From positions 99,062,566 through 99,126,565 of the forward strand of contig NC_060251.1 in NCBI RefSeq assembly GCF_921293095.1: a stretch of DNA of 64,000 bases. The letters run 5' to 3'. Both the position numbers and the translations under genes were made by a program. How positions within the stretch are numbered: the first letter of the stretch is position 1; every line of letters starts with the position of its first letter. This document shows positions 1,087 to 53,776 of this stretch, piece after piece. Under the pieces are notes generated by a model, which made no database searches, was not told the origin of the DNA, and saw only the letters and a program-made list of their open reading frames with translations. This stretch comes from Ischnura elegans. Lineage: Eukaryota; Arthropoda; Insecta; Odonata; Coenagrionidae.

Positions 1087-1282
1087 ATAAAATTGTTTCA
1101 GGCTTAATTTTGTGGAATAATGATATATCCATGATTAAGGCACAAATGGAAATATCCACACTATTTTATTTGACACTTAACCGACCATGGTTTCACCTTG
1201 TAGATGACACAAAGTGTCGAAACCATGGTCGGTAAAGTGTTAAATAAAATAGTGTGGATATTACCATTTGTGTTTTAATCAT
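1087..1282 (+). mobile_element. Snap-back hammerhead-like element H-a (Penelope-like type)
   Basis: A 196 bp non-coding unit lies between exact 11 bp direct repeats AAACAAGCATT (1076-1086 and 1283-1293), read as a target-site duplication. From 1131 to 1282 it is a near-perfect palindrome: 64 bp arms at 1131-1194 and 1218-1282 differ at about five positions. A one-sided extension of about 44 bp precedes the left arm. The loop carries TAGATGA, then the small stem GACAC/GTGTC, then GAAACCATGGTC, a spacing that recalls a hammerhead ribozyme with a very short helix III. The extension resembles that of H-i at 53.6 kb (shared GTTT-AGGC-TAA-TTTG pattern). The link to Penelope-like elements is inferred from this layout; no reverse transcriptase is attached. 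Confidence 0.72.
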
Positions 1283-1293
1283 AAACAAGCATT

Positions 1294-1496
1294 GATTTCC
1301 ATATAATTTATTTCTTCTCCATTCGAAAGCTAGGGAAATTAACACTAAACAAGTGAAAAATCGTGCTTCGTGTTTTCACTTTCTCTTCAAATTTAGATCG
1401 ACAAAAACTAACAAAATGATCTAACAATTGCTACCTACGACAAAAATAATAGCAAATAGCAAAGAAAGAGATTTAATAATATAAATAGATGAAGAT
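1294..1496. other. Unannotated AT-rich stretch
   Basis: Nothing recognised between element H-a and the SINE that follows. Confidence 0.4.
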
Positions 1497-1499
1497 GGC

Positions 1500-1680
1500 T
1501 TTGGAAGAAGACGGCTTGGTGGACGGCTGTTAGCACACCAGACCGGTAATCGGGATATTCGGGTTCGTTTCCGGCTGAGACAAATGATTTTTTCCGCGGT
1601 GAATTCGATCGTTGGTGTACTACATAACTTTGCTTCCGTGCGCTTGACTGCGTACAAAGATACTTATTTAAGCAGTTTTC
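1500..1680 (+). repeat. tRNA-derived SINE, family S2
   Basis: A tRNA-like head with a B-box-like GGGTTCGTTTCC near 1560 is followed by a tail block, AAATGATTTTTTC then GTGAATTC...TTGGTGTA then TAACTTTG and GTACAAAG. The same tail block occurs at 2465-2510, 27950-28090 and 55490-55630, which defines the family. The internal Pol III promoter and LINE-dependent movement are family knowledge, not shown here. Confidence 0.7.
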
Positions 1681-1689
1681 TGATAGACT

Positions 1690-2460
1690 TATTTTATACA
1701 CTTAGACTTATAGACACCAAATTCATAGTTGGGCGCGAATGGGCGCAAATTGGCCCAGTGAATTGAAAAGAAAATGAAGTTCAATGCAAGAGGGAGTAGG
1801 GAGGCCTGCGTGATTCGTGAAAGAGATGTCCCCAGAATGGCTACCACAAAAAATATAATATCTTTTATATACAAAGAAAATTTGATGGGATTTTTTTTTA
1901 ACCACCTTGGACATAAAAGCTCGCGGGGGAGTACTGTTTGAATGTGCGTGGGCGAAGGGGACGCAAAAATCCCTCCCTCCCTCCCTCCGTAAGTAATAAA
2001 GTCCTTCTCGTGGCAGGTGGAGATACGCTGGTCGGTAGATAAACGGGGGAGGAGGTGGGCGGAAGGGGTGGGTGGGTATTTGGGAGGGGTAGCGTGGGTG
2101 TATGGATGGATGTTGGGTTTGAGAGATTGCTCGGCGAGGGTCCGAAGGGAATCTGCGGCAGGAACAGCGCCCCCGCGTGGGCGGACGAGGAGAAGACGTA
2201 ACGAGGGCATCTGATAAAAATGGGCTCTTTATTTAACGTGCCCCGCTCCGAAATTTTCATCCCAACTTCATATTTCACTTAGTATCAAGAGGAGCGGAGT
2301 GCTAAAATAAAAAATACTTACATTTTTCACAGATTTCCCAAAGTTTTAGGTAGCAGAAAAAAATCTATAACTGTCAATGAATCATTCTTTATCTCATACA
2401 TGTTCGGTATGATTTTTACTTCACTCGCAAAAATAAAGAGAATGACGTTACTAAATCCCG
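1690..2460. other. Gene-free stretch with simple repeats
   Basis: Contains a short (CCCT)n tract at about 1971-1988 and G-rich stretches around 2045-2100. Overlapping open frames on both strands here are low-complexity and resemble no protein family. Confidence 0.4.
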
Positions 2461-2461
2461 G

Positions 2462-2515
2462 CCGAGCCAAATGATGTTTTCACGGTGAATTTCATCCTTG
2501 GTGAGTAAAAGGTCT
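2462..2515 (+). repeat. SINE S2 tail fragment
   Basis: GCCAAATGATGTTTTCACGG then GTGAATTTCATCCTTGGTG matches the S2 tail block. It abuts an S1 SINE, so one SINE probably inserted beside or into the other. Confidence 0.6.
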
Positions 2516-2519
2516 ATCA

Positions 2520-51304: not shown

Positions 51305-51352
51305 GTCCTAACACCCCCCGCCACTCCCCTGTTAAGGAGGCTTGAGGAATTT
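51305..51352 (+). mobile_element. LINE B-like 3' hairpin fragment
   Basis: GGTGTCCTAACACCCCCCGC, then CTGTTAAGGAGGCTTGAGG follows the LINE B 3' end; the tail is replaced by AT-rich sequence. Confidence 0.55.
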
Positions 51353-51434
51353 ATTTTATATATTTATTTCCCACTTCCCTGTAATCATCTCAGAACAGCA
51401 TTTACAACGGGTGTTTAAACATTAACAATAGAAC

Positions 51435-51545
51435 ATCAAAAACATTCGTGCCCTGGATAGGGACCACCTACCCAGGCGGGATTCGAACCCGCGAACTATG
51501 GATTGGCAGGAGAGGATTTTACCCCTCCGCCACCGAGGCCGGAGT
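51435..51545 (-). repeat. tRNA-derived SINE, family S3, minus strand
   Basis: The minus strand reads CGGCCTCGGTGGCGGAGGGG, TTCGCGGGTTCGAATCCCGC, GTGGTCCCTATCCAGGGCAC. Clear A and B boxes; truncated before the LINE-like tail. Confidence 0.78.
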
Positions 51546-52240
51546 ATGTAAACCCAAATCAATTAGTTAATTTAATCGCTATTTCGAATGAGGGGAAACG
51601 ACCCCTAGCAAGCCTCTCTCTCCGGTCTTCTCGCTATAAGGTGAGATATTGTCGAGAAAGAAGGAGACGCGCGCCTTCAGGGCGTGGGCCGAGAAATTGG
51701 TTCGTATTTGAATCGGAGAGGATTGTGTTTTCCTAGGAAGAGGCTCGCGAAGTGTTACATGGAAAGCGGAGGTGTTGGTAGGTAGGGAAGCTATTTCTTT
51801 CTCTCTCCCTCGCCGTTGTTGGATTGTTGGGCGTGGCACCTCTCACACCCTTCGCGTTTCGCGGCGTTATTCACAGAGGAAACGAAAGGGAAGAAAAGAG
51901 AAATGAACGCACGCACACACTAACAAACAAGTGTCTTGAATGGGCTGCTCTTCAGGAAGTCGGGGGTGATGCGAACCAGCACGTTCGTGCCGAAATTGTG
52001 AGGGAATTCGGACGAAAATAGGTTTTTCGAGGATTTAAATGAAAGGTCCAAGCACGTAAGAGGGTGTTACCTTCACAGGGACGGAACTAATTAATTAAAG
52101 AAGCCACGTTTTATAATCTCAAACGGGATAAATGGATGGATTTTTCCGGTAAAAGAGTTAACGGAAGTATTGTATATTAATGCATTGATTTTCTCTACTT
52201 TTTGTTGCAAGTAGTAAGTAGCAAATAAGCAAGTAGCAAA
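51546..52240. other. Gene-free stretch
   Basis: Moderately GC-rich (51590-51900) with 65-86 codon frames on both strands and no motif; no feature called. Confidence 0.4.
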
Positions 52241-52244
52241 AGAA

Positions 52245-52762
52245 AGTAAAAGAAAGGTGCTATTTCGCTCTCGTCCGACCGCACCTTGAATACGCAGCGA
52301 GCGTATGGGATCCGGTGCAGAAAGACTTAATCCGCGAACTGAATAAAATACAAAGGAAGGCTGCGCGTTTCGTCAAAAACTGCTACGGGCGTACAGACAG
52401 TGTTACCCAGATGTTAAGCGAATTAGGCTGGGAGCCGTTGGAGACTCGGAGGCTGCGCGCTAGGATTAGATTGCTTGAACCATTGAGAATGGATATCTTT
52501 AAGAGCAACACAGATAACATAATATTAGAGCCACACTATATTTCCAGGTCCGATAGAAGCGATAAATTAAGAGAGATGTTTTGCCGAACGGATAGATGTG
52601 GGAATTCGTTTTTCCCCCGAACAATAAAGGACTTAAATAAACGCTAGTCCCAACCTCGTTAGAGCAATTCATTTTTTTAAAGCTGTAAACGGCTGGTGTC
52701 CTAACACCCCCTGCCACACGCCTTTTAGGCGGCTTGCGGGGTATTATGTAGATGTAGATGAA
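52245..52762 (+). mobile_element. LINE B 3' end, best coding copy
   Basis: An open frame from about 52255 to 52647 encodes ALVRPHLEYAASVWDPVQKD, LIRELNKIQRKAARFVKN, YGRTDSVTQMLSELGWEPLE, ISRSDRSDKLREMF and FFPRTIKDLNKR, the C-terminal end of a CR1/L2-type RT polyprotein. The ~110 bp 3' UTR has hairpin 1 (GGTGTCCTAACACC), hairpin 2 (CCCCTGCCACACGCC with GGCGGCTTGCGGGG) and ATGTAGATGTAGATG. 5'-truncated but otherwise little decayed, hence a younger copy. Confidence 0.88.
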
Positions 52763-52764
52763 TA

Positions 52765-53570
52765 TGGAATGAAAAAATCAAACTGTCGTGTATAACATAA
52801 AATATTGTACCACCATTTGAGTTTTTAATACAATATTGCACCTTTAAGGCCACAGAGCTCCATTGATCTTCTGTTTCAACTTTTCGAATTATTTCCAATT
52901 AATCAACAGATTTTCCAGCGAAAAATGCTGTAGCTTCACCAGTACTACCACGGAACGAGGAAAATGTCCTTTAAGTCATAATTCCCAAGTATGCCACTGA
53001 CAATGAGTGCGAGTTTCGATAATCTATCTATAATTTCATTTCAACGGGACATTATGATTGATGAAGTACTATAAGATATGTCTTAAATCTTTCTCCTCGT
53101 CCCTTCAGCAATTACTGCCTAATTAAAACACTAAAAAAGTAATTTTTTTCCACTATCTGGCCTCAAAATTTCCTTTCTTGAATCCCACAACTTCGACCTC
53201 TAATTTCAAATCCTCCCTAAAATGTAACCGAAAGAACACTACGCACTCCAACGCCAAGGCCTCTTTGTTACTTTTGATACATGAGTTATGTTAAATTCTT
53301 TATTCTCTGTTAGTTTATTATTTATCAACCCGATGCAAAAGGTCTTGTAACATTTATGAAGGCGAAAAGTTAAATTAATTAAAACGTTAATGTTATGCTG
53401 TTCGGCACTTCATCATGCAACTTTCTGAGCTACCAGAGCATGCAAATTCTGTTGAAGACGCCAAAATACTGGTTGACTGCAAATGACTAAAGCCACCACA
53501 AAAAGTTGGAACACATTAAAATTAATTTGCTGGAACATTCGTTTGACAATTATATTCTCTGGAAAAGTTA
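52765..53570. other. AT-rich gene-free DNA
   Basis: No recognised feature. Confidence 0.4.
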
Positions 53571-53585
53571 CATAATAGGTGGATT

Positions 53586-53776
53586 GTTGAAAAAGAAGAA
53601 ACTTTGTGCTTTCACGTGAACATGTATTCACACTATTACACGACCATGGTTTCAACGTCATCATCAAGTGGACTTTAGTTCATGTGAGTTAAATATTCAT
53701 GTGAAAGTGCAAAGTTACTTCTTTTTCAATTTTCATAATGAATCGCTTTCGCAAAGTTACGCCTCAAACCATCAAC
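53586..53776 (-). mobile_element. Snap-back hammerhead-like element H-i
   Basis: A 191 bp unit between exact 12 bp repeats AATAGGTGGATT (53574-53585, 53777-53788). Arms TTGAAAAAGAAGAAACTTTG... and ...CAAAGTTACTTCTTTTTCAA are inverted over about 36 bp. On the minus strand the centre reads TTGATGA...GTTGAAACCATGGTCG, sharing GAAACCATGGTC with H-a. The ~46 bp extension on the right, read on the minus strand, contains GGTTTGAGGCGTAACTTTGC, resembling the H-a extension. Confidence 0.78.

Follow-up and report, generated by a model that had tools for sequence, protein, structure and literature searches.

What produces the short fold-back units scattered over a 64,000-nt stretch of the Ischnura elegans genome (assembly GCF_921293095.1, contig NC_060251.1, positions 99,062,566 to 99,126,565; hereafter the window)? 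Six of them, U1 to U6, are 140–364 bp long, and each is enclosed by a short direct repeat. A sequence-only reading of the window had suggested that they may be a stand-alone, non-autonomous class of ribozyme-bearing elements with some link to Penelope. We consider it likely that they are instead insertions by Penelope-like elements (PLEs) of the same genome that hold only the pseudo-long terminal repeat (pLTR), forming two-armed stubs in which each target strand would have primed one cDNA and the two cDNAs would have been joined head to head.

Under the mechanism that we propose, a PLE would be transcribed from a TATA promoter in its own pLTR. The RNA would begin just 5' of a hammerhead-like core and would contain, some 90–130 nt further on, two fixed reverse-transcription start sites near the frame start; site 2 would lie 30–45 nt downstream of site 1, and the interval would form the tail. 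The endonuclease would make staggered nicks, giving duplications of about 9–15 bp, and each target strand would prime one cDNA on the PLE RNA, with site 1 used for one of them and site 2 for its partner. Each cDNA would be extended in the direction of the RNA 5' end, with or without premature termination, and a head-to-head junction of the free ends would follow, often with a short filler copied from the arms. Use of the start sites near the RNA 5' end would leave a short fold-back stub of about 200–250 bp, and use of those in a downstream pLTR would leave a coding PLE with the same ends; the short stubs would be pairs of cDNAs that ran off the mRNA at its 5' end. The general form of this proposal is that PLE insertion is routinely two-ended, with each nicked strand priming its own cDNA, both RNA start sites used once each and the cDNAs joined head to head, and here we judge the balance to lie modestly in its favor.

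Anatomy of the units and their genome copies

The flanking repeats of U1 to U6 are all exact, as had been reported, and measure 11, 12, 10, 12, 10 and 12 bp, respectively. In isolation such repeats are little proof. The window holds 44 exact repeats of at least 10 bp at a spacing of 100–420 bp, compared with a mean of 25.2 (maximum 37) in 20 first-order shuffles. The duplications of the units are convincing because they are placed at the ends of palindromes and recur in other genome copies. Inverted arms are present in five of the six units (U1, U2, U3, U4 and U6), in agreement with the earlier description, and a fold-back search of the window found no palindrome in U5. Each of these five carries a one-sided tail, of 44 nt in U1, 32 in U2, 34 in U3, 35 in U4 and 47 in U6. 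The sequence-only reading recognized this extension and placed it 5' of the core; we read the tail instead as extending the sense strand of the tailed arm on its 3' side.

Sequence searches covered the whole 1.72-Gb genome, with genome-wide queries taken from the U1 and U2 families. The U1 DNA query returned 1688 first-look candidates, the U2 query 1435, and the tailed U2 arm, used as a third DNA query, 1564; 40 places were scored for each. The U1 alignment comprises 28 of its 40 scored places, selected by the whole unit, and the U2 alignment comprises 29 distinct copies among 40 (L053 is the same place as L030). A flanking repeat scored at least 9 in 25 of the 28 U1 copies and in 21 of the 29 U2 copies, compared with 1.6% of 252 and 1.4% of 290 mismatched pairings. 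The short and variable target-site duplications that mark PLEs are thus found in the U1 and U2 copies, and the tails of U1–U4 and U6 (32–47 nt) correspond to the optional 30–40-nt tail of the pLTR.

The coding content of the units amounts at most to a frame start, and neither reverse transcriptase (RT) nor endonuclease is encoded. The statement that they lack coding capacity was wrong in detail, however. The tailed arm holds an intact CTGATGACGATGG in 21 of the 29 U2 copies, and in 18 of these the frame stays open from the ATG in the core through the whole tail. In the window, U4, U5 and a single pLTR-like arm, X2, also carry an open start.

Probable Penelope-like parents and coding copies

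The search for a Penelope-type RT/GIY-YIG element with matching ends, which the sequence-only reading had advised, was successful. At three places (L089, L090 and L091), RVT_1 and GIY-YIG domains exceed the curated cut-off within one frame. These frames, of 840, 824 and 779 aa, are those of PLE-A, PLE-B and PLE-C, and not of the U1 and U2 families. The PLE-A protein (840 aa) gave 95 matches at E ≤ 0.001 (7997 candidates scored), including PLE-type proteins of insects and others, and is 32% identical over 98% to an 857-aa protein of Drosophila virilis, which we take to be Penelope itself. As a separate observation, L091 contains a 450-aa open frame (3–1352, minus strand) that adjoins the PLE and bears the motif WKSPGPDGI, presumably a LINE-like one.

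A genome search for GIY-YIG gave 149 matches, and the coding copies were drawn from 30 of these with their flanks and from nine fetched regions. In all 14 PLE-A copies with both ends in hand, one end is tailed and the other untailed, head to head, between exact flanking repeats of 12–15 bp. Loci with one PLE-A end only (L063, L075, L079/L089 and L083/L084) were not counted. All six PLE-B copies likewise have one tailed and one untailed end, with repeats of 11–13 bp, two of which are weak (A-rich and of low complexity in L065, offset by 28 nt in L069); L059 (three unresolved hits), L060, L070, L072 (one end), L090 and L091 were left out of this count. Every one of the 20 coding PLE copies with both ends in hand thus pairs a tailed with an untailed end. 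Neighboring GIY-YIG matches no more than 10 kb apart, among the 149, are in −/+ orientation, that is head to head, in 16 of 16 pairs, two of which look like one duplicated region. Two head-to-head endonuclease pairs at G000:C9, near 105.12 and 105.56 Mb, lie 442,644 bp apart with an equal internal spacing of 2862 bp, which suggests a large regional duplication.

A similar asymmetry was seen with the tailed U2 arm as query, where the second end is unselected. A second arm lay nearby in 27 of 40 places; 26 of these arms end at query positions 89–99 (site 1), one is a fragment ending at 41, and none of the 27 reaches position 122, the end of the tail. Unpaired tailed arms numbered 13, of which 11 were fetched. 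L025, which seems two-tailed, has a tandem pLTR inside and, judged by eye, one tailed and one untailed outer end. Selection of the 20 coding copies went by their endonuclease, irrespective of the ends; the U2 pairs, found through the tailed arm, are weaker evidence on this point. Free choice between the start sites would leave at least half of the insertions two-tailed or tailless, and none of the 20 coding copies is so.

Longer copies join the U1 and U2 pLTRs to PLE coding sequence, and the Penelope link drawn by the earlier reading is upheld in this respect as well. In five U2 copies (L107, L109, L112, L114 and L115), a TATA-bearing region precedes the arm start. In L112 and L115 the C-terminus of a PLE endonuclease lies upstream of the U2 pLTR and matches the GIY-YIG frame of L067 in blastp (E = 1.7e-6 and 2.1e-7, respectively), these values referring to a small set of 99 proteins; the L115 piece also matches the public protein P0076 at 3e-5, and the same peptide in L114 reaches an E-value of only 0.14. 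On the U1 side, a query from L025 detected a module that adjoins U1-type pLTRs in part of the 40 scored places. The C-terminal half of a GIY-YIG endonuclease lies between the U1 arms of L118 (1.9e-9 to the genome's own PLE in the 99-protein set), a partial piece without a Pfam match. No intact RT frame accompanied a U1 or U2 pLTR in the stretches fetched around the longer copies, which are short. Over about 90 nt, the U4 arm shares 73–75% identity with the pLTR that follows the GIY-YIG frame in L067.

The same longer copies point to a predicted transcription start. A TATA-like box lies 28–31 nt upstream of AAGCCC in five of six U2-type arm starts, three of these boxes being variants added to the pattern after inspection, and 28–31 nt upstream of ACCTTG in seven of eight U1-type arm starts in six longer copies. 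AAGCCC (U2) and ACCTTG (U1) are therefore the predicted starts. Because the arms begin at these positions, below the TATA-like box, the U1 and U2 units would be without a promoter, and they are probably by-products of autonomous PLEs. The longer arms of U4 run past the start and contain a TATA-like CTATATAG stretch.

The hammerhead in these pLTRs is putative and is recognized at the level of the motif only. The pattern CTGANGA-N10–34-GAAAC occurs seven times in the window against an expectation of 0.75, and none of 100 shuffles contained as many; of the seven matches, U2 and U4 contribute two each, one per arm, and U5 one. A core had been described in all six units; the full pattern is absent from U1, U3 and U6. 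Stem I of the cores in U2, PLE-A, PLE-B and U5 comprises 3–5 pairs, the sequences of which differ, and a single additional nucleotide separates CUGANGA from stem II. Stem I has at least 3 bp in 121 of 137 core matches among the loci, most of which are related copies. The covariance-model check came out negative, with no match to the Rfam hammerhead models in the window or in two pLTRs alone. Other Rfam matches in the two lone pLTRs did not reach the gathering scores, and in L035 the stronger of them trace the palindrome. Two further matches to the core pattern, at 9646–9680 (minus) and 38302–38333 (plus), lie outside the listed units.

One or two cDNAs per insertion

The palindromes appear mostly to have been formed anew rather than inherited, because no consensus difference separates the two arms in U1 or U2, subfamily variants are common to both arms, and the centers of all 29 U2 copies differ. 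Among variants present in both arms of at least two copies, the only ones listed, those at U2 positions 61 (10/10), 55 (5/5), 59 (4/4) and 80 (13 of 13–14) are common to both arms, and that at position 27 in only 7 of 10–11; the corresponding U1 variants are at positions 35 (6 of 6–7) and 68 (5 of 6–7). The 29 fillers of this first U2 set are 8–35 nt long (median 18), and 123 of their 393 6-mers come from the arm, compared with a mean of 15.2 (maximum 34) in mononucleotide shuffles. U1 centers could be read in 27 of 28 copies and gave 26 different strings, some separated by point changes only. The genome search and tabulation of flanks proposed by the sequence-only reading found flanking duplications in most U1 and U2 copies and one tailed and one untailed end per resolved insertion, with centers that mostly vary.

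The two arms also appear to end independently of each other. In 26 of 28 U1 copies the untailed arm extends further 5' than the tailed arm, while lacking the tail. In each of the 29 copies of the first U2 set, neither arm stops more than 3 nt short of the start; the 5' ends are equal in 17, the untailed arm is longer in 7 and the tailed arm in 5, by 1–3 nt. Of the 14 PLE-A copies, 10 have the longer arm on the tailed side (in one by 2 nt) and four on the untailed side (in one by 7 nt). We infer that both target strands prime, that both arms derive from one RNA and that a joining step follows, and we envisage two separate cDNAs, one per target strand, because each arm holds sequence that the other lacks and both U2 arms reach the start.

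Several observations weigh against this two-primed reading. Nine further U2 copies (L098–L106), which are nine of the 27 paired arms found with the tailed-arm query, share one identical, hairpin-like and filler-free junction and form a second junction class beside the filler class. In all nine the untailed arm starts at nt 7 and the tailed arm is 6 nt longer, and all nine have their own exact flanking repeats of 9–15 bp. Such a center could arise if the tailed cDNA folded back and primed itself, or if a single palindrome was passed on by descent; two-strand priming and self-priming may both occur, or the junction may be a favored microhomology or a descended center. The longer tailed arm in 10 of the 14 PLE-A copies is also explicable by a single-primed snap-back stopping at site 1. 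Three unpaired U2 arms (L108, L110 and L113) have 5' neighbors that are unresolved, and the assignment of U3, U5 and U6 draws on window anatomy and weak homology. The derivation of both arms from one RNA is itself weaker than their derivation from one subfamily. Arm identity within a copy is 0.942 in U1 and 0.956 in U2, compared with 0.927 and 0.936 between copies, and exceeds all 2000 permutations in both families; PLE-A shows a mean of 0.994 within and 0.976 between copies (one copy being too short). However, a copy's own second arm is its single best match in only 5 of 28 U1 and 7 of 29 U2 copies, hence the weaker claim. Finally, the in vitro work on an anole PLE (PMC11167929) finds top and bottom strands alike in their start sites and does not reproduce a rule of one site per strand.

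Part of this evidence would suit a single-primed snap-back, in which a cDNA primed at site 2 reaches the RNA 5' end, folds and copies itself as far as site 1, making the untailed arm a copy of the tailed arm. The nine identical junctions and the PLE-A arm lengths speak for it, and the account in PMC3846280 proposes self-priming, with an antisense template, for inverted PLE junctions. However, the untailed arm has 5' sequence absent from the tailed arm in 26 of 28 U1 and 4 of 14 PLE-A copies; in these, each arm holds sequence that the other lacks, which excludes that either was made by copying its partner as DNA. In the first U2 set, where both arms come to within 3 nt of the start, the 29 intervening fillers all differ. 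The untailed arm ends at one fixed site, for which copying would need an extra block. We therefore regard the snap-back as an unlikely general route.

The idea of a self-standing non-autonomous family, in which a palindromic element with a ribozyme would be transcribed as a whole and copied by means of borrowed PLE enzymes, fares worse and strikes us as quite improbable. The high copy number (the 1688, 1435 and 1564 first-look candidates of the three DNA queries, 40 scored for each) and the one center common to nine U2 copies speak for it, and U4, whose arms hold a TATA-like stretch, would be transcribable in principle. However, the centers vary, no fixed difference separates the arms, the U1 and U2 arms start below the promoter, and copies with PLE coding sequence carry these same pLTRs. 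The earlier claim of a stand-alone class is accordingly abandoned for U1 and U2, whose arms lack the TATA-like box and whose palindromes appear newly made, with the nine U2 copies as a possible exception. Fold-back or miniature inverted-repeat transposable element (MITE)-type DNA transposons with terminal inverted repeats would share the inverted repeats and target duplications, but are scarcely credible here, given duplications of variable length (about 9–15 bp), centers that differ between copies, asymmetric ends with one tail, arms that contain a frame start and the link to an RT/GIY-YIG element. An inherited palindrome with a fixed center and a fixed duplication length does not fit the arm and center data of U1 and U2, as 29 of 29 U2 fillers differ and duplications vary, with nine further copies sharing a center.

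Returning to the two-primed reading, its elements have counterparts in known PLEs. Pen2a_Av of Adineta vaga, as described in PMC3846280, resembles the units in its pLTR with a TATA motif and frame start, its head-to-head inverted pLTR, its optional 31-bp tail and its short target duplications. Compared with that description, the units here are pLTR-only and numerous, with one tailed and one untailed end per resolved insertion, and most centers are formed by two separately ended arms and not by a shared palindromic junction. Poseidon of Anolis carolinensis (PAc) likewise has, according to PMC11167929, two internal RT start sites that define a tail and a frame start within the hammerhead, and its protein cuts and extends both strands. 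The difference lies in the start sites, for which PAc is reported to show no strand difference and which here are apparently used once each per insertion. In the same account the PAc hammerhead cleaves in vitro only with protein and is dispensable for insertion. Metazoan non-LTR retrozymes, as presented in PMC7229834 and PMC7761336, are likewise short, mostly non-coding and hammerhead-bearing, and are thought to be mobilized by PLEs; however, they are tandem repeats of about 150–300 bp with canonical type I hammerheads, whereas the units here are inverted pairs with a minimal, partly decayed hammerhead-like core and without an Rfam hammerhead match, and we do not assign them to that class.

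Our conjecture would make the head-to-head layout of PLEs a consequence of the insertion reaction itself rather than of self-priming accidents. In LINE-1 twin priming, the second target strand primes on the RNA and leaves inverted segments with variable junctions within the target duplications. Twin priming is a minority outcome of L1 insertion and uses variable internal sites; in contrast, two-strand priming here looks routine, with a fixed second site. The stubs record single insertion events at base resolution, and a literature search of incomplete coverage found no printed statement of a one-site-per-end rule. The 2024 in vitro study describes the later insertion steps as yet to be validated (PMC11167929), and the rules drawn from the stubs (one start site per end, independent arm ends, run-off at the transcription start and arm-derived filler) are testable in such a system. 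They also carry a warning that PLE debris in animal genomes, in the form of short hammerhead-bearing fold-backs, can be mistaken for a MITE or for a non-autonomous class.

Features of the window

Positions of the six units, their parts and one related single arm in the window
Unit	Feature	Positions	Strand	Basis or remark
U1	left target-site duplication (TSD) AAACAAGCATT	1076–1086; second copy 1283–1293		exact flanking repeat
U1	tail, 44 nt, 3' extension of tailed arm	1087–1130	−	in 28/28 aligned copies (selected by whole unit)
U1	tailed arm, 5'-truncated	1131–1194	−	U1 arms 92% complementary
U1	untailed arm; start ACCTTG, predicted transcription start	1195–1282	+	alignment, TATA in longer copies
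U2	left TSD TTGATTTCTGTT	4381–4392; second copy 4630–4641		exact flanking repeat
U2	tail, 32 nt	4393–4424	−	fold-back and copy alignment
U2	tailed arm; hammerhead-like core 4480–4512	4425–4517	−	pattern search
U2	center filler, 20 nt	4518–4537		unlike the other 28 fillers
U2	untailed arm; hammerhead-like core 4543–4574; start AAGCCC, predicted transcription start	4538–4629	+	pattern, alignment
U3	whole	23496–23657		TSD AGAGGTGGCT 23486–23495 and 23658–23667
U3	untailed arm (left); truncated tailed arm; tail	23496–~23571; ~23577–23623; 23624–23657		central arm limits by eye
U4	whole	33832–34195		TSD 33820–33831 and 34196–34207
U4	tail; tailed arm; center; untailed arm	33832–33866; 33867–34016; (center between arms); 34046–34195		fold-back
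U4	hammerhead-like cores	33916–33946; 34116–34146	−; +	pattern search
U5	whole	45429–45568	−	TSD 45419–45428 and 45569–45578; 73.9% identity to U2
U5	untailed arm, core 45484–45515; second arm apparently reduced to tail-like part	~45429–45520; ~45521–45568		by eye
U6	whole	53586–53776		TSD 53574–53585 and 53777–53788
U6	untailed arm (left); truncated tailed arm; tail	(left part); 53690–53729; 53730–53776		fold-back
X2	single pLTR-like arm, U2/U3/U5 group	35589–35725	+	77.6% to U3, 71.6% to U5

Comparison within the window found no second arm for X2. Other inverted structures are also present. X1 (21876–22389) has 39-bp inverted ends and a GATGATGGCTC..GAGCCGAAACGCG motif, and X3 (41547–41698) and X4 (55885–56013) are fold-backs. 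An additional fold-back at 57501–57648, with 64-nt arms that are 86% complementary and 20 nt between them, did not match any of the PLE ends and arms with which the window was compared. A 115-nt tRNA-like repeat occurs in three copies on the minus strand (25037–25151, 39742–39856 and 40585–40699). ARAGORN did not report these copies; each scores 48.2 bits with the Rfam tRNA model, and they are possibly a tRNA-derived repeat.

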